From Candidatus Auribacterota bacterium (GTDB lineage: Bacteria; Auribacterota; Tritonobacteria; UBA1439): 37,394 bases of DNA. Position numbers and translations under genes: made by a program. This document shows, one piece after another, positions 1 through 6,495 of this stretch. Below the pieces are notes generated by a model, which had not been told where the DNA came from, did not search any database, and worked only from the letters and a program-made list of their open reading frames with translations. Location: positions 1 through 37,394 of the forward strand of contig JAPLCX010000053.1 in assembly GCA_026392035.1 (NCBI GenBank), given 5' to 3'. Position 1 is the stretch's first letter; each line of letters starts with the position of its first letter.

Positions 1-20
1 TCGATCTTTGGGACTGATTT

Positions 21-136
21 CTTGGACAGCATTTTCTGAGACCTCAAAATGAACCAGGCGCAAAATCGTCCAAAACGCCGTTTTAGCCCTTATATTTGAG
101 GGGGGTCCACCGAAAAGTCATTTATCTTGGACAGCA
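21..136. repeat. Pair of 11-bp direct repeats at the left edge
   Basis: The 11-mer CTTGGACAGCA occurs at 21-31 and again at 126-136. The second copy covers the stop-codon end of the neighbouring minus-strand gene. The roughly 95 bp between them carry no gene. Short repeated sequence at the edge of a defence island could be the worn end of an insertion element, but no transposase is visible and the window starts here, so this is only a possibility. Confidence 0.3.
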
Positions 137-748
137 GTGATCCCAAATATTTTCAATTCTATTATTAGGGATGCCAAGCAAATAATTTTTTAAAAATTTC
201 CAGTCACTTTGTATAGGATAGGTATTAAATTTATGAATAAATATCTGGCTAGGTTCACTTCTGATGTACATTTTAACTATTTCTTCAATAACCTGTGCTT
301 CATCTACAATATTCTGTGAATGTTTCGAGCGGCCATAATTTTTAATTGATAAACATATCTTAGATTTGTCGGGTAAATTTATAATTAAATCATATCCCGG
401 ATTGTTTATTGCGGGGAAACTGACTATTTGATTAGGTGGGTTATGTAACGCAGCAGCTATGATAACCTCAAGCATTGCTCCTTTCCTATTATTTGCGTCA
501 TCGGTCTTTATCTTTTCAATTGTTTTAATGACCCATTTGAGATCAATGTTTTTTATTTTTTTGATACTGCATCCTAAGAGTATTATTTCAGTGGATGCTA
601 AAAAATCGTTTCTTTTCCAAAGAATTTGAACAGGATTACTTCCATTTACCTTAAGCCATTCAAGAGTAAATGATAAAACTAACTCTTCAAGTGCTGTTTT
701 AAGCATTAATTCGCAACTACTCGAAACTGCTCTTCCGGAAGTGTACAT
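122..748 (-). CDS. Hypothetical protein, possible PD-(D/E)XK-like nuclease fold
   Basis: A 208-residue protein of unknown function, distal in the defence-island transcription unit. The start is the ATG preceded by GGAAG with 7-nt spacing; an in-frame TTG 36 nt upstream is less convincing. The middle of the protein has an acidic helix (E94 in GAMLEVII), then GYDLI (D120), then a strand with LSIKNYG (S134-x-K136). This order resembles the E...D...(D/E)xK core of restriction-endonuclease-like folds, with Ser where the usual acidic residue sits. The fold call is inferred from motif order only. The gene is clearly AT-richer than the genes to the right, suggesting transfer. The C-terminus ends inside a short repeat at the window edge and might be truncated. 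Confidence 0.6.
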   Translation of the reverse strand: MYTSGRAVSSSCELMLKTALEELVLSFTLEWLKVNGSNPVQILWKRNDFLASTEIILLGCSIKKIKNIDLKWVIKTIEKIKTDDANNRKGAMLEVIIAAALHNPPNQIVSFPAINNPGYDLIINLPDKSKICLSIKNYGRSKHSQNIVDEAQVIEEIVKMYIRSEPSQIFIHKFNTYPIQSDWKFLKNYLLGIPNNRIENIWDHCCPR

Positions 749-820
749 TTCTAGTCTTCCATTTATCCTCTGATTATTTCCCAATCCTATCTATAATTTC
801 CCATTAAAATAAAATACATG

Positions 821-1002
821 TCATCGAGTTATGTCGATTATTACGATTTCCCCCTCGGTGAGGCCATAAAGGTCATAGACGAGGCGGTCGATCTGGTGGT
901 CGAGGCCAGCGCACTTGTTCCGTAGTAGGTTTTATCTTTGTCGGTCTTTGCTTTGGCGAACTGTTTCTTCGCCCATAGGATCGTCTCCAACAACCGCACC
1001 AT
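821..1002 (-). pseudogene. Decayed second copy of the restriction-modification gene 3' end
   Basis: Reading the minus strand, this stretch encodes a relative of the last ~56 residues of the 970-aa restriction-modification protein encoded to the right (the sequence from MVRLVE to the stop). Bases 836-1002 align with 2021-2188 without gaps except one missing base near 921, which breaks the frame just after the KDKTYY segment. After restoring it, the remnant reads NKCAGLDHQIDRLVYDLYGL and continues to its own stop. It is therefore a fragment of the same gene or of a close homologue. Its right-hand part is also read, in a different frame, as the last ~24 codons of the neighbouring HEPN-like gene. 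See the finding on direct repeats. Confidence 0.85.
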
Positions 1003-1957
1003 TTTGATTTGATGTGCTTAGATTTTGGAACGCTTTAAAAATAGGAGAATTACCACTAATCCTCCAGTCATGCGATGCAAAAGGAATAGATATTTTGTAT
1101 CCGAGATAATAGAAAAAAAGAAGTCTGTTTAGTCTTAACCCAAGTTTATATAAAGCAAAAGCTTCCATATGCAAATCTGCAAGTAATCGCGAACTTCGAA
1201 AACTCCCATTTGCAAATTGTTTGCTAAAACCATCCCTTATATACCATTGCCGAAGTAACCGTATTAGATCTATCCTATCTTTCTGTATGTGGATAAAGGA
1301 ATGCGCTCCAACAATATTCCTTAATCTTCGCAAGAGTTCCAATTCCTTTATTACTTGGTTTTTTGCGTCTCGAGTAGAGGCTGCGAAATTAGGTCGTGCT
1401 GCTGGATTCAGTCTTTTATGAATCAGTCTATTAATGCCTCCCGTACCCAGGCTACAATCCTGATTCCTTTTATTAATATACATAGACTGCAGAATTTCTA
1501 TTGACGTCGCAAAAGAAACCATCGTTAAAGGAAAGAAATTAACTCCTAACTTCAAGGCGACCATATAGTGTAAGAGAGAAAGCTCGAATAATTCTTTTTT
1601 CCACAAAGGATATGAGTTAAATGGTGTTCGTTCGCATTTATGTAAGAATTGGATAAGATTGGCGTTATCGAGGGGAAATACTCCTCTTGTCCCATTCCAT
1701 CTTGTATCATGATCGTTAGAAGAAACGAAAAATCTTTCCCCGAAATAAACAGAAAGCCAATAAAACAGCCAAAGATCTTTAATTTTCGTGTCTTCCTGAT
1801 ATACGATCTTGATGGATGTAGCCGGTAATTTATTCTTTTGCAGCATACAAAGCTTAAAAGGAATGCCCTTCCAATCTAATGAAATACTTGACTGAGAGGA
1901 TTCAATACGTGCATATCTGAAATGAATAATACTGGCAACAGAATTCTCACTAATCAT
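932..1957 (-). CDS. Hypothetical protein with HEPN-like RX5H motif
   Basis: About 341 residues, probably soluble. The start is the ATG with GGAAAG seven bases upstream; an in-frame TTG five codons earlier is an alternative. A helix-rich central part contains LLRRLRNIVGAHSF, in which R213, N214 and H219 fit the R(N)X4-6H signature of HEPN ribonuclease-like domains, common in toxin-antitoxin and defence proteins. That is a motif match, not a proven family assignment. It follows the restriction-modification gene by 33 nt on the same strand. The last ~24 codons run in another frame through the decayed copy of that gene's 3' end, so the natural C-terminus may have been replaced. Base composition is AT-rich relative to the housekeeping genes. 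Confidence 0.65.
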   Translation of the reverse strand: MISENSVASIIHFRYARIESSQSSISLDWKGIPFKLCMLQKNKLPATSIKIVYQEDTKIKDLWLFYWLSVYFGERFFVSSNDHDTRWNGTRGVFPLDNANLIQFLHKCERTPFNSYPLWKKELFELSLLHYMVALKLGVNFFPLTMVSFATSIEILQSMYINKRNQDCSLGTGGINRLIHKRLNPAARPNFAASTRDAKNQVIKELELLRRLRNIVGAHSFIHIQKDRIDLIRLLRQWYIRDGFSKQFANGSFRSSRLLADLHMEAFALYKLGLRLNRLLFFYYLGYKISIPFASHDWRISGNSPIFKAFQNLSTSNQNGAVVGDDPMGEETVRQSKDRQR

Positions 1958-2005
1958 AATGCGTCTTTCCAATATATCCTATCGAAAAAATATATTCGCT
2001 GGTGA

Positions 2006-4918
2006 TCAACCATGCCCCTCGACTATAGCAATCTCCTTGTTGGTGAGGCCGTAGAGGTCATAGACAAGACGGTCGATCTGGTGGTCGAGGCCGGCGCACT
2101 TGTTCTCGTAGTAGGTTTTATCCTTATCGGTCTTCGCCTTTGCCAATTGCTTCTTTGCCTCCAGCAGCACCTCCACCAACCGCACCATCTGGTCGTGTCG
2201 CAATTTGTCGGCGGGGTCGGAAAGATTCAGCTTGGGAATGGGAAGCGCCTTTAATTGAGTAACTTTAATCTGGGGGAATGCTTGGTTTGATTCGTCGTAA
2301 TAGGAGCGAATAAAAAAAGCGATGAGCTGACTTCCAAGAATACCGGCGAGGAAAGTCGCGCTCAAAGAGCCCGGGGTAGGTTTTGTGATGTAGACTTGTT
2401 GGTCGGCGACCGAATCTGTAGTCTCAACGGTTACAACAAGGCGGTCGGCGAGAATTTTCCGTGAGTATACACGCTCACCGCAAAAGAACTCCGGGTTGCG
2501 CGGTTCTGCCAGCCAAGGTCCATATTTGACATACTCAGTTGCATGAGGCGGGGTAAACCGATGGAGGTCGCACCCATAAACGAATGGCCGGTATTCGGGT
2601 TTCTTTTTTGGGCTATGGTATGGACGTTCCGCCAAATCGCGTTTGGTCTGTGGTCCTGAACCAAAGGCTGATCTTCCGTAGCCACCGAGTCTGTATGAGT
2701 GAACGCCGCGCGTGATCTCGGCAATTCTACCAAGTTCAATATTCTGTTGCTTAATCTGCTCTGCCAAGTCCGCGCTCTGAGGTGTGATTGCGGTAGATAT
2801 AGGACGATGGCCGTCCAAATATTTCGCAGTTTCGTATGTTGAAATAGGTTCCAATGCTCCGTCCCTGATAGCCTTAACATCGAATGAGTCTCCCGATCTC
2901 TGTGCTTTCTCCAACGTATAGACAACCGTATCCACGGTAATGCCTGCGAAGACATCACTAGGGGGCACAGCGATACACAAATCATGCGCCCGTGAAAGAA
3001 TGAAGGCTCTGGTTGTCGAAGAATAAGTATTGGTCAACCAAACATTGGGCACAATTTGTCCAATTCTTCCTCCAAACTTCGTAAGGGAAGAAGCTCTCTC
3101 CATGAAGAGCGAAAACATATCGAGTTGGTAGGAAGATGCCGTGTACTTCCTGTTGAAGTAAGCTTTATGCTCATCATTGATGTTTAGCGCCTTCCAGTCA
3201 CGCCCGAAAACATACGGTGGATTACCCACAACAGCGTCGAACCCACCGCGCTTCATGACCTCGGGGAAGGCATCCTCGAAATTCATGGGATTCAGCTTGC
3301 GTTCTTCATCGCCGGGGAAGAGTTGCCCCTCCAGAATATCGGTGCCGATAAGGGAGTTGCCGCAGACGATGTTTTTATTGAGCGGCGGCAGGAGGGTTTC
3401 GTGGAATTCCATCTGATGTTCGTGGGCGCTGGCGGTGGTTTCGTCCTGGAGCAGCTTCAGATAGAGCGAGAGCTGGCAGACCTCGACGGCCTGGGCGTCA
3501 ATGTCAACGCCGTATATGTTATTGAGTAGGATTTCGCGTTTCTTGCGGAGCGAGAGGTATCGTTTGCCGTCGTGCTCGATACAGTCTCCTTTCCGGGCCT
3601 TTTTGGGGTGAGCGTTATAATAATTGCCGTGGTATCTCAGCAGCAGATCATAGATGCCAAGCAGGAACGAGCCGCTGCCGCAGGAGATGTCGGCAAATTT
3701 CATCTCCGCGATCTTATCGGGCGACTTGCCGGCGATGAGCTTGCCGACGGTGTTCTCGACGATGTAGCGGACGATATATTCCGGCGTGTAGTAGACGCCG
3801 CCCGCTTTGCGGACTTCTGGTTTGTCCTCGACACGCACCCGTTTGTCGGTGGCGACGATGACCTTGCCGAGGAATCGCTCATAAATTGATCCAAGTATAT
3901 GAATAGGGATGGCGTTGAAGTCGTAGGGCGAGTTGGTATGCGAAAGGCTATTGCAGACGCCGGCGAAGGCGTCAGCGTCCACATGAAAGTTTGGCGCGTC
4001 GAGGATGGCATGCTGCTTGAAAACAATGCCGTTGTAGATGCCGTCGAGCCGGCGCGAGGCGGTGATGAAATGCTCCCACGCCCCGCTTTTCTCGCAGAAC
4101 TTTTCCATGTGGCGGTGCGGTTCGATGCCCTTGTCTTCGAGGAAGCGCAGGAAGACAAGGCGGTCGAGGGTGCGCTGAGTGATCTCGGTCAGCGTCTCGC
4201 TGTCGAGGCGCGGATTCCTGTCCTTAAAGGCATGCGCCAGCGCGGTGCGGTGTTCGTCAAGTTCCTTGAGGAAGGATTCATCAATGCTCTGGGAACCGCC
4301 GGGGAACAGGCTGCGTTTAGCGGCTTTCCCACGGGGCTCGCGAAGTTCGGCGGCTCGCTTCTCCAACGATCCGGCGGCGACGGCCTCCCGGGAAAAGAGC
4401 CAGTAAATCCTGGCAAACTCGTCCCGGTTCGAATACTGTGAATAATGATACTTCGCCACGGCTCGGTCCAGCGCAGTCGAAATGTCGGGCTTGCAGCGGC
4501 AGTCGAGAATATGGAACTGCTCAAAATCGGTGAGTACCGCCAGGGGTGTTTTGCTGTTCCAGCCGTAGCGTATAACCTGGAAATGATTCTCTTTTGTCCC
4601 GATCTGGACCGCGGGCTTCTTTGCTTCCACGAAGAAACGCGCGTCGCGGAAATCGGGAGCGAGGAAGAAAGCGTAGTCGGCGCGGCGCTGTCCCCCGGCG
4701 CTCAATCCGCGCTCGACTTTGACTTCCTGCTCGTAGGGATTGGTTTGAACGTCGTGGTTCACGTCCCAGCCGAGCGCGATCCAGAACTTGTCGATGAAGT
4801 CCTTCCGTGCCTCCGCTTCCTGGTAGTCCGGGGAGAGATAGCGCGCCTCATTTGCCTTGAACGTGGCAACAAGATCCTTGACCTTACCAAAAGCGATATC
4901 GAAAGGGGTATAAGTCAT
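2006..4918 (-). CDS. Single-chain restriction-modification enzyme, Eco57I/type IIG-like
   Basis: A 970-residue fused endonuclease and N6-adenine DNA methyltransferase. The N-terminal 140 residues hold a PD-(D/E)XK nuclease-like core: RRADYAFF (D81) then FFVEAKKPA (E98, K100). The methyltransferase has motif X GGVYYTPEYIVRYIV at about 373-387, the AdoMet-binding motif DISCGSGSFL at 410-419, and catalytic motif IV NPPY at 566-569. The last ~300 residues should hold target recognition, ending in a helical segment (about 908-950). One chain with cutting and methylation activities is typical of type IIG enzymes, and no separate S or R subunit is present. It lies 89 bp downstream of higA and may be co-transcribed with higBA. 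Its 3' 168 bp is duplicated beyond the next gene. The recognition site cannot be read from sequence. Confidence 0.93.
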   Translation of the reverse strand: MTYTPFDIAFGKVKDLVATFKANEARYLSPDYQEAEARKDFIDKFWIALGWDVNHDVQTNPYEQEVKVERGLSAGGQRRADYAFFLAPDFRDARFFVEAKKPAVQIGTKENHFQVIRYGWNSKTPLAVLTDFEQFHILDCRCKPDISTALDRAVAKYHYSQYSNRDEFARIYWLFSREAVAAGSLEKRAAELREPRGKAAKRSLFPGGSQSIDESFLKELDEHRTALAHAFKDRNPRLDSETLTEITQRTLDRLVFLRFLEDKGIEPHRHMEKFCEKSGAWEHFITASRRLDGIYNGIVFKQHAILDAPNFHVDADAFAGVCNSLSHTNSPYDFNAIPIHILGSIYERFLGKVIVATDKRVRVEDKPEVRKAGGVYYTPEYIVRYIVENTVGKLIAGKSPDKIAEMKFADISCGSGSFLLGIYDLLLRYHGNYYNAHPKKARKGDCIEHDGKRYLSLRKKREILLNNIYGVDIDAQAVEVCQLSLYLKLLQDETTASAHEHQMEFHETLLPPLNKNIVCGNSLIGTDILEGQLFPGDEERKLNPMNFEDAFPEVMKRGGFDAVVGNPPYVFGRDWKALNINDEHKAYFNRKYTASSYQLDMFSLFMERASSLTKFGGRIGQIVPNVWLTNTYSSTTRAFILSRAHDLCIAVPPSDVFAGITVDTVVYTLEKAQRSGDSFDVKAIRDGALEPISTYETAKYLDGHRPISTAITPQSADLAEQIKQQNIELGRIAEITRGVHSYRLGGYGRSAFGSGPQTKRDLAERPYHSPKKKPEYRPFVYGCDLHRFTPPHATEYVKYGPWLAEPRNPEFFCGERVYSRKILADRLVVTVETTDSVADQQVYITKPTPGSLSATFLAGILGSQLIAFFIRSYYDESNQAFPQIKVTQLKALPIPKLNLSDPADKLRHDQMVRLVEVLLEAKKQLAKAKTDKDKTYYENKCAGLDHQIDRLVYDLYGLTNKEIAIVEGHG
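2021..2188. repeat. Intact copy of the 168-bp direct repeat (end of the R-M gene)
   Basis: This is the in-frame partner of the decayed copy at 836-1002. The two are in direct orientation, about 1.19 kb apart, roughly 80-85 percent identical by eye, and differ in length by a single base. Confidence 0.8.
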
Positions 4919-5007: not shown

Positions 5008-6096
5008 TTATTCCGACCAAGTGAATCTGGTTCTCAGCTTATTCAGTGCTGAATTCTGTGGAACAAGTTTATCATATTGTAGCCTCCCGATTACGATACC
5101 TGCATGAACACCTGTCTTCTCCGCGATTCCTTGAATAGCTTGAGGATTAGAAAAAACCGATTTTCTGAGCTCATCATAGGCCTTCGGAGGAATTAATTGA
5201 TTGGCGGCAAAGCGGTCGGCTTCTTGTTCCTGTTCTTTAAGTTCAGGGTTTAAATTTCCTGCTTCAATAAATATCATTCGTTTATCATGCAGGAGGATAT
5301 GAGCCAATTCATGAAAAAAACTGAACCAGAAGATATCCGCCCAGCTTCCCCGAATGCTCATCAGAAGCACCACCTTCCCTGACGAAATCCAGAATGTCGC
5401 GCCATTAGCATACGTCTTCGAGAGATGCGGCAGCATTACCAATGCCACGCCGCACTCGGCAAGGAACTGTTTGAGCTCGGGTTCAAATTCATGCGGCGGC
5501 TTCAAGGAAAGCCCACGTATGACCGCGATCTTTGACTTCAGAGCTTCTTTCGCATAAGGTTTTGTTGCTATTTCGCGCCCTCGTATCTCCCCGCATTTGA
5601 GCCATGCGGCGAGCGCATAAGGCGATGCTTGCTTTTTCTGAGAAAAGCGAAAAGCAGGACTGTACGCTTTTACGTCTGGCATATTTTTGAGAGAGGAAAC
5701 GCCGAAGAAACGTTGCAGTTCGCGAACCTTTCCAATCTTGTCCTTTGCCATTTTGACAAGCTTCATTCTAGCGAGATCGGCGTATGGAATTTGAGCCAGT
5801 AATGGTAAGTCCTGTTTTAATTGTTTCTCTTCATCTTGTCGCGCCATAACTAGTTGATATTGCGCCTCTAGTCCTGTCCAGATATGCGCAGGCACATCCA
5901 AAGCGCGCTCTAGCTGAAGCGCCGTATCCGGCGTAATGGCCTTCTCTCCCTTTATGATCTCGTTAATCGCCTGCGCCGGTCGCCCCATCCGTCGCCCGAT
6001 CTCCGCCTGGCTGATTCTCTTAGCCTCTAACACCTCGGCCAGATACTCGCCCGGCGGTATTGCCAGATCAGAATGAATCATTCTTTCAGTCGTCAT
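5008..6096 (-). CDS. higA: HigA-type antitoxin fused to ImmA/IrrE-like metallopeptidase
   Basis: A 362-residue protein. Residues 10-75 form an XRE/HigA helix-turn-helix (PPGEYLAEVLEAKRISQ followed by GRRMGRPAQAINEIIKGEK), which should bind the operators upstream of higB and neutralise the toxin. Residues ~200-310 form a DUF955/ImmA-IrrE-type domain with the zinc motif FFHELAHILLH (H262, E263, H266) and a downstream EQEADRFA that supplies a third ligand (E292). Antitoxin-peptidase fusions of this kind are known; the peptidase part may sense stress or cleave the repressor. It overlaps the toxin gene by 11 nt, so translation is probably coupled. An ordinary HigA is about 100 residues, so more than two thirds of this protein is extra. 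Confidence 0.9.
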   Translation of the reverse strand: MTTERMIHSDLAIPPGEYLAEVLEAKRISQAEIGRRMGRPAQAINEIIKGEKAITPDTALQLERALDVPAHIWTGLEAQYQLVMARQDEEKQLKQDLPLLAQIPYADLARMKLVKMAKDKIGKVRELQRFFGVSSLKNMPDVKAYSPAFRFSQKKQASPYALAAWLKCGEIRGREIATKPYAKEALKSKIAVIRGLSLKPPHEFEPELKQFLAECGVALVMLPHLSKTYANGATFWISSGKVVLLMSIRGSWADIFWFSFFHELAHILLHDKRMIFIEAGNLNPELKEQEQEADRFAANQLIPPKAYDELRKSVFSNPQAIQGIAEKTGVHAGIVIGRLQYDKLVPQNSALNKLRTRFTWSE

Positions 6097-6388
6097 AGTG
6101 CTTGCTCACCTCCTCCACGCGTACAACCTCAAGATGCTCCCCGTGCACAGTGAAAATCAGGCGATAGAAACCCGTGAGTGAAATTGCATATTGCCCTTCT
6201 CTATCACCCTTCAACGGATGGCATTTTAATGCCGGCAGCTTGCGTAGTTCCTGTAAATCTGCTGCTGCCTGAACAACATTAATTCTTTCCACATACTTAC
6301 GGCCCGCCGCGTCACCCCAGGCCCGGATGGCGTGCTTATGTTTCACATAACATTTCTCCAGCTTCCTGTTCCTGAACGTTACCTGCAC
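6086..6388 (-). CDS. higB: HigB/RelE-type toxin
   Basis: A 100-residue, basic protein of the RelE/ParE superfamily, HigB branch. Recognisable features are the N-terminal strand with RNRKLEKCY, the central LPALKCHPLKGDREGQYAISL segment, and the C-terminal YRLIFTVHG...VEVVRVEEVSKHYDD strand pair. HigB toxins cleave mRNA in the ribosome, and the cognate HigA blocks this. The start is GTG with GGAG seven bases upstream. Toxin-before-antitoxin order and the 11-nt overlap with the next gene are typical of higBA. The promoter and paired dyad just upstream indicate autoregulation. Pairing with a HigA-peptidase fusion is the unusual part. Confidence 0.88.
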   Translation of the reverse strand: MQVTFRNRKLEKCYVKHKHAIRAWGDAAGRKYVERINVVQAAADLQELRKLPALKCHPLKGDREGQYAISLTGFYRLIFTVHGEHLEVVRVEEVSKHYDD

Positions 6389-6474: not shown

Positions 6475-6495
6475 TATTCGCCCCTGGGGTGAAGA
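6475..6495. promoter_or_regulatory. Operator 2 of higBA (21-bp dyad)
   Basis: Second dyad TATTCGCC-N5-GGTGAAGA, same arm and spacer lengths as operator 1 with one change in each arm. Joint pattern TATTCRCC-N5-GGTGAAKA. Two sites flanking a promoter suggest cooperative binding or looping. Confidence 0.6.

Follow-up and report, generated by a model that had tools for sequence, protein, structure and literature searches.

Known Systems and the Locus Under Study

Integron arrays, including chromosomal integrons, consist of single-operon cassettes that lie in one orientation, are separated by related repeats and are stacked behind a fixed platform, and they are rich in toxin-antitoxin genes. Homology-facilitated illegitimate recombination, in turn, combines one homologous anchor with one variable, non-homologous junction. 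Both are considered here in relation to a locus of a Candidatus Auribacterota bacterium (GenBank assembly GCA_026392035.1), in which a Type IIG restriction-modification (RM) gene has its 3′ end repeated behind a cargo gene. The window, that is, the whole stretch analysed, comprises positions 1 to 37,394 of contig JAPLCX010000053.1 (C53) in a 2.8-Mb draft genome, and its start is the start of the contig. With a little better than even confidence, we read this locus as one short cassette array anchored on the RM 3′ end and built by recombination at the conserved tail.

The insertion of RM gene complexes with long target duplication was described by Nobusato, Uchiyama and Kobayashi in 2000, as cited in PMC3874152 and PMC3031569. 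As far as the citing papers describe it, that phenomenon shares with the present loci an RM-linked insertion, long flanking direct repeats and no transposase, but here the RM gene would be the target, the inserts are other cargo in series, and the window copies diverged as coding sequence. In the pneumococcal tvr locus, the tyrosine recombinase TvrR shuffles hsdS parts of the SpnIV Type I RM system within a strain; as here, the RM locus there combines direct repeats with toxin-antitoxin homologues and with the recombination of DNA that encodes specificity domains (PMC6265443). RM-anchored arrays, however, vary in their downstream cargo, and no recombinase was found among the cargo scanned. The RM genes of Helicobacter pylori undergo specificity-domain exchange and domain movement, and likewise keep conserved flanks around a variable specificity domain (PMC3077401), but domain movement concerns the specificity domain itself, whereas the arrays add a downstream stacking of cargo with copies of the gene tail. 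Within a limited open-access coverage, which gives weak evidence of absence, serial cassettes separated by RM-tail copies were not found described.

A Displaced Copy of the RM Gene End

On the minus strand of the window, a HigB-like toxin gene, an HTH/M78 gene, the RM gene, a 346-aa frame, the RM-tail copy and a 220-aa frame follow one another (Table 1), and the 346-aa frame (932-1972) is the single long frame between the two repeat copies. A first-pass annotation had reported that the RM gene end recurs in the same orientation with one base lost, and this was borne out, the displaced copy or stub (836-1002) being 81% identical to 2021-2188 over 167 aligned positions. Local alignment of the two tails scored 178, against a best score of 28 among 500 shuffles, and chance similarity was rejected on this ground. 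The identity of only ~80% between the copies makes an assembly artefact unlikely, as does the presence of the pattern in single-contig genomes and in one with a completeness rating of 100%.

A comparison of 55 codons showed one single-base deletion and 31 substitutions between the two tails. Of the substitutions, 20 fall in third codon positions, and the synonymous share of the differences is 58%, where 22% would be expected in the absence of selection (p=1e-5). This excess indicates that much of the divergence arose while both copies were translated as RM tails and, because the differences lie mainly at third positions, it suggests that the window copies are old RM-end alleles rather than a fresh duplication; the earlier view of a displaced end decaying from a fresh duplicate is therefore not supported in the window. 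Pairwise tail distances were 0.145 between the RM gene and its homologue in a genome of another genus (G001), 0.188 between the RM gene and the stub, and 0.181 between the stub and G001. The resulting tree is nearly star-like, the stub lineage being about as old as the RM gene of the other genus and about equally distant from its own RM end and from that of G001.

It was also considered that a cassette inserting at the RM 3′ end duplicates 50-200 bp of its target and that the distal duplicate decays. The architecture fits such an event, the phenomenon is cited for RM loci as mentioned above, the stubs of loci L132 and L007/L090 diverged without codon bias, as local duplication would have it, and the closest match of many stubs is their own RM end. 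However, third-position, coding-type divergence was found not only in the window but also in the stubs of L042, L045, L133 and L137, and the L045 stub is nearer to the RM end of another genome (83%) than to its own (79%), so that we hold this explanation unlikely as a general account. Since the coding bias is present in the window and these four loci and absent in L132 and L090, more than one history may be present among the stubs.

Distribution of Displaced RM Ends

An RM-tail profile (A1) was the search handle used to find short copies in many genomes, where they lie behind RM genes or far away from them. The tail was present in 28 of the 119 genomes of one Acidobacteria order and, counting intact RM genes and short copies together, in 95 genomes of a sample of 384 in which most genera were represented by a single genome; plasmids gave four weak matches and phages none. 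Most loci come from metagenome-assembled drafts, in which many contigs end at repeats. Altogether, 71 displaced copies of RM 3′ ends were mapped, a count that includes arrays with related repeats, the events not being independent. Sixty-nine of them span 15-73 codons and lie inside the conserved 3′ domain, and the two longer ones reach 126 codons, which is clearly longer, and 93 codons, at a contig end.

These lengths bear on another history, in which full RM genes with their downstream genes stood in tandem or were acquired repeatedly, and all but one were deleted to the 3′ tip. Internal RM deletion does happen, as seen from the N-terminal stubs joined to 3′ stubs in L085, L089, L094, L135 and L148, but this history would leave a broad range of remnant lengths, and the cargo, moreover, differs between copies. 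A plain tandem RM duplication with constant cargo, which the first-pass annotation had named as the finding that would contradict it, is not what the relatives show, and we consider this history improbable. As a separate observation, loci that have lost the RM gene (L085, L087, L088, L089, L094, L135 and L148) often retain an N-terminal RM stub of ~36-90 aa, in a few cases longer, which is either joined to the 3′ stub or parted from it by cargo, as if both ends persist.

Adjacent copies within 4 kb of each other shared the same orientation in 35 of 35 pairs, and the open reading frame (ORF) sequence between copies amounted to 20.5 kb on the same strand versus 4.4 kb on the opposite one. The 3′ side of the stubs is constant and nearly always complete to the stop codon, the 5′ boundary is variable within the lengths given above, and the next start codon often lies within tens of bases after the copy. 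Such features would be expected if the repeated tail were a functional cassette element kept by selection, for instance for translation coupling of the next gene. However, copies are detected by their conserved 3′ side, which makes the stubs look more one-sided than they are, and the silent sites of the RM end are unconstrained, so that a role of this kind appears highly improbable.

A copy of the gene's own 3′ end within 5 kb downstream was found for 10 of 36 RM genes (L081 counted) and for none of 285 other genes, the RM rate being inflated because the loci were chosen for RM ends. In the Acidobacteria contig L042, the RM gene is followed by five successive cassettes, each ending in a stub, in the order DUF6883+DUF4926, antitoxin+PIN, ParE+antitoxin, VapB-like+PIN and HicB-like+HicA. 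Similar arrays were observed in L129, L130, L136, L212, L214 and L207, the last from a genome of 9 contigs rated 100% complete, with a stub that is 83% identical over 167 nt. L132 and L135 are related loci with a common downstream flank, in which the RM gene or its stub is followed by different cassettes, and near-identical RM genes with both flanks in common carry different specificity domains, the cargo behind them also differing. That the tail is a mere domain of several complete proteins was rejected for arrays such as L042 and L129, in which short copies in their own frames lie between unrelated genes; the same motif is, however, also found at the end of other large RM proteins. In G083, two different RM genes (L081/L099 3743-3787; L012 2831-2875) each have a second tail copy of 42-49 bp, only ~25-50 bp behind the stop codon and with no gene between.

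Comparison with a Relative of Another Genus

Among the relatives that have this RM gene, G001 is the closest, and it carries the same HigB-HTH/M78-RM module as the window, with a nucleotide identity of 83% for the HigB and HTH/M78 genes (6494-4970) and 91% for the RM 5′ half, while the GatA proteins of the two genomes are 77% identical. The RM homology ends abruptly at window position 3212, beyond which the specificity domain is unrelated, and the final 167 bp of the gene are again 86% identical. Behind the RM gene nothing is common: in G001, this place is taken by a 186-aa frame and a Dsr1-like protein of 1008 aa (PADLOC 7e-24), and in the window by the gene with an RX5H motif. The variation of cargo behind RM genes with displaced tail copies, proposed in the first-pass annotation, was supported by this pair and by many other genomes. 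The window module adjoins gat genes, and the gat genes of G001, G002 and G003 have no such RM module beside them, which indicates that the module itself sits at different places.

A coupling between the arrival of the RX5H gene and the exchange of the specificity domain was considered and not established, because the present RM tail matches G001 at silent sites (13/17) about as well as the 5′ half does (193/244). When a donor was sought by means of the window specificity domain, the best relative reached only 36%.

Two side observations concern the same module and its cargo. The HigB-HTH/M78 pair accompanies the RM gene between genera (window 6494-4970 versus L102 689-2213), and its homology stops sharply at window position 6494. 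In addition, a viral-collection contig (L184 6161-9658) encodes, directly behind an RM gene, a long protein whose start resembles the 186-aa frame of G001 (L102 5348-8931), which suggests the same Dsr1-like defence cargo behind two different RM families.

Cargo of the Cassettes

The genes found between or directly behind the copies mostly belong to toxin-antitoxin or defence families according to Pfam and PADLOC, and their putative defence function is assigned by family name only. PIN cargo comprised eight frames, seven at the curated cut-off and one (L209) just below it. Further matches were ParE, YoeB, HicA, UPF0175, DUF6883 with DUF4926, HEPN_RiboL-PSP, HEPN_Cthe2314, Nmad3, DUF4041 with T5orf172, DUF3800, YhcG, RhuM, TIR/SEFIR, RmrA-like HTH/M78 and DUF4411. 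The DUF6883/DUF4926 cassette was found in both L042 and L129; L045 contains the second of its two genes, and in L034 the first one appears to begin behind the RM gene. A VapBC-like cassette is common to L141 and L136 (G278/G279). It was also observed, in a viral-collection contig (L187 6118-10301), that a Gabija-like pair, judged by eye to be an ATPase and a UvrD-type helicase, lies directly behind an RM gene end.

The scan of cargo proteins revealed no recombinase, the whole genomes and the rest of the window not having been scanned for IntI. One cassette holds a probable REP-associated tyrosine transposase (RAYT), a weak match. Probable RAYT fragments were also noticed directly at RM-tail copies (L094 1-330, L093 3-254, L087 3089-3379), and one of them, in G246, apparently constitutes the cassette, its parts lying on two contigs.

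The first-pass annotation had described the gene between the window copies as HEPN-like. A single AT-rich gene with an RX5H motif does lie there, and its RNIVGAH satisfies the motif of the HEPN superfamily, Rx4-6H with a polar residue after R (PMC3710099), but the HEPN identity is unproven, because it rests on this motif. The 346-aa frame had no match in Pfam, PADLOC, NCBIfam or PDB sequences and no relative in viral contigs, plasmids or 240 genomes, and a single-sequence fold prediction was uninformative (predicted local distance difference test score, pLDDT, of 37). The final ~23 codons of the frame overlap the stub, whose sequence they use in a different reading frame, so that the protein probably lost its natural C-terminus at the junction. 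The 220-aa frame (122-784) had no match in Pfam, PADLOC or NCBIfam; by eye, it shows a possible PD-(D/E)XK-like motif.

Tests for a Site-Specific Mechanism

Arrays of this kind could also be produced by a site-specific cassette system, in which a putative trans-acting recombinase inserts circular cassettes at a site in the RM 3′ end, much as integron integrases act at attI; each insertion would give the gene a complete end again and push the previous one away. Single-operon cassettes in a single orientation, with related repeats between them, stacked behind a fixed gene and drawing on recurring cargo types, would speak for such a system and are traits that RM arrays share with integrons, as is the abundance of toxin-antitoxin genes. 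In contrast to integrons, however, the repeat is the coding RM 3′ end with a variable 5′ boundary, it has no attC-like fold, and the cargo scanned holds no integrase. The fold energies of three repeats, on both strands, equalled those of shuffled sequences (z near 0), and a hairpin or attC-like site was rejected on these repeats. Identity at fourfold-degenerate sites was 0.561 in the RM tail and 0.560 in the methylase half, and a core site conserved at the DNA level was consequently rejected, the RM end having no extra conservation at such sites.

The first-pass annotation had likened the locus to elements that integrate at gene ends, and this was not supported, the variable 5′ boundaries and the lack of a fourfold-site excess not agreeing with a fixed crossover site. 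Its statement that no integrase is present held, as the interval between the window copies contains the 346-aa frame only, which matches no family. A tRNA gene as target was rejected, the window having none. Overall, a site-specific system is regarded as unlikely, though it deserves mention first among the alternatives, and, given the absence of a hairpin and of extra silent-site conservation, we prefer recombination anchored on the conserved tail to the action of a site-specific integrase.

A Proposed Model of Recombination on the Conserved Tail

In these RM genes, the 5′ half and a 3′ domain of ~70 codons are conserved, and the specificity domain between them is variable and exchangeable. 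In the model that we favour, the resident RM 3′ domain would pair with that of incoming DNA, in which a toxin-antitoxin or defence gene lies behind an RM 3′ domain. A circular molecule would enter via one crossover, and a linear fragment by homologous recombination at one end and an illegitimate junction at the other. The RM gene would retain a full 3′ end, with the new gene placed directly behind it, whereas the former 3′ end would be left as a stub on its former neighbour, the junction between the new cassette end and the old tail varying from event to event. The constant 3′ and variable 5′ sides of the stubs would follow, because the cassette arrives behind an RM tail and displaces the old tail together with the old neighbour. 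Repeated events would stack cassettes in one orientation, the newest adjoining the RM gene, and neighbouring stubs could recombine, leading to cassette excision. In the window, the newest cassette would be the RX5H gene and the next one the 220-aa frame. Homology-facilitated illegitimate recombination would fit the one fixed and one variable side of the stubs.

Several points weigh against this model, besides the stubs without codon bias and those closest to their own RM end. The insertion event is deduced, no before-and-after strain pair having been found, and recombination between repeats of 65-170 bp at 80-95% identity should be rare. Cassette transfer as a unit is weakly shown, the 92% identity of the VapBC-like cassette of L141 and L136 being only a moderate excess over the ~85% of one marker gene of those genomes. 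Moreover, the loci that have lost the RM gene and join an N-terminal RM stub to a 3′ stub are unexplained by the model.

Features of the Window Locus

According to its domain matches, the window RM gene is a single-chain Type IIG enzyme with an N-terminal nuclease, an N6-adenine methylase and a C-terminal specificity domain: Pfam identified Eco57I methylase, N6_Mtase and TaqI_C, besides a weak HSDR_N match at the N-terminus, and PADLOC identified REase_MTase_IIG (E=1e-162). Its G+C content is 54% and that of the rest of the window 58%, versus 36% and 32% in the 346-aa and 220-aa frames. At the contig start (window 1-140), CTTGGACAGCA/G is present twice, ~105 bp apart, possibly representing the edge of another mobile element.

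Table 1. Coordinates of the RM-anchored module and its cargo in the window.
Feature	Position	Strand	Basis
HigB-like toxin gene, first gene of the module	6086..6388	-	Pfam HigB-like_toxin 4e-6
HTH_3 + Peptidase_M78 gene (HigA-like / ImmA-like partner)	5008..6096	-	Pfam HTH_3 3e-8, Peptidase_M78 3e-9
Type IIG RM gene, intact, one open frame, 970 aa	2006..4918	-	ORF list, Pfam, PADLOC
RM conserved 5′ half (nuclease + methylase to about the NPPY motif)	3212..4918	-	91% identity with the RM gene of G001
RM specificity (target recognition) domain	2222..3211	-	Pfam TaqI_C; unrelated in G001; elsewhere mostly 20-30% identical
RM conserved 3′ domain, current copy of the repeat	2021..2188	-	Local alignment, tail profile
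Cargo gene with RNIVGAH (RX5H) motif, 346 aa, 36% G+C	932..1972	-	ORF list, alignment, composition
Displaced RM 3′-end copy, 167 nt, one base lost	836..1002	-	81% identical to 2021-2188
Second cargo frame behind the displaced copy, 220 aa, 32% G+C	122..784	-	ORF list, composition

Possible Implications for Defence Gene Capture

These arrays bear on the open question of how defence islands acquire and swap genes where no mobile element is evident. It is tentatively proposed, with rather less than even confidence, that RM-anchored arrays constitute a distinct and widespread gene-capture platform, comparable to an integron without an integrase, in which the Type IIG tail would be a shared recombination site for collecting and exchanging toxin-antitoxin and defence genes across phyla. 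In the arrays, the point of capture, the order in which genes arrived and the scar left behind would be legible from the sequence, each RM-tail stub marking one acquisition. The RM tail can be used as a search handle for defence cassettes, and several family-less frames found between copies, including the RX5H gene of the window, are candidate new toxins or defence genes.
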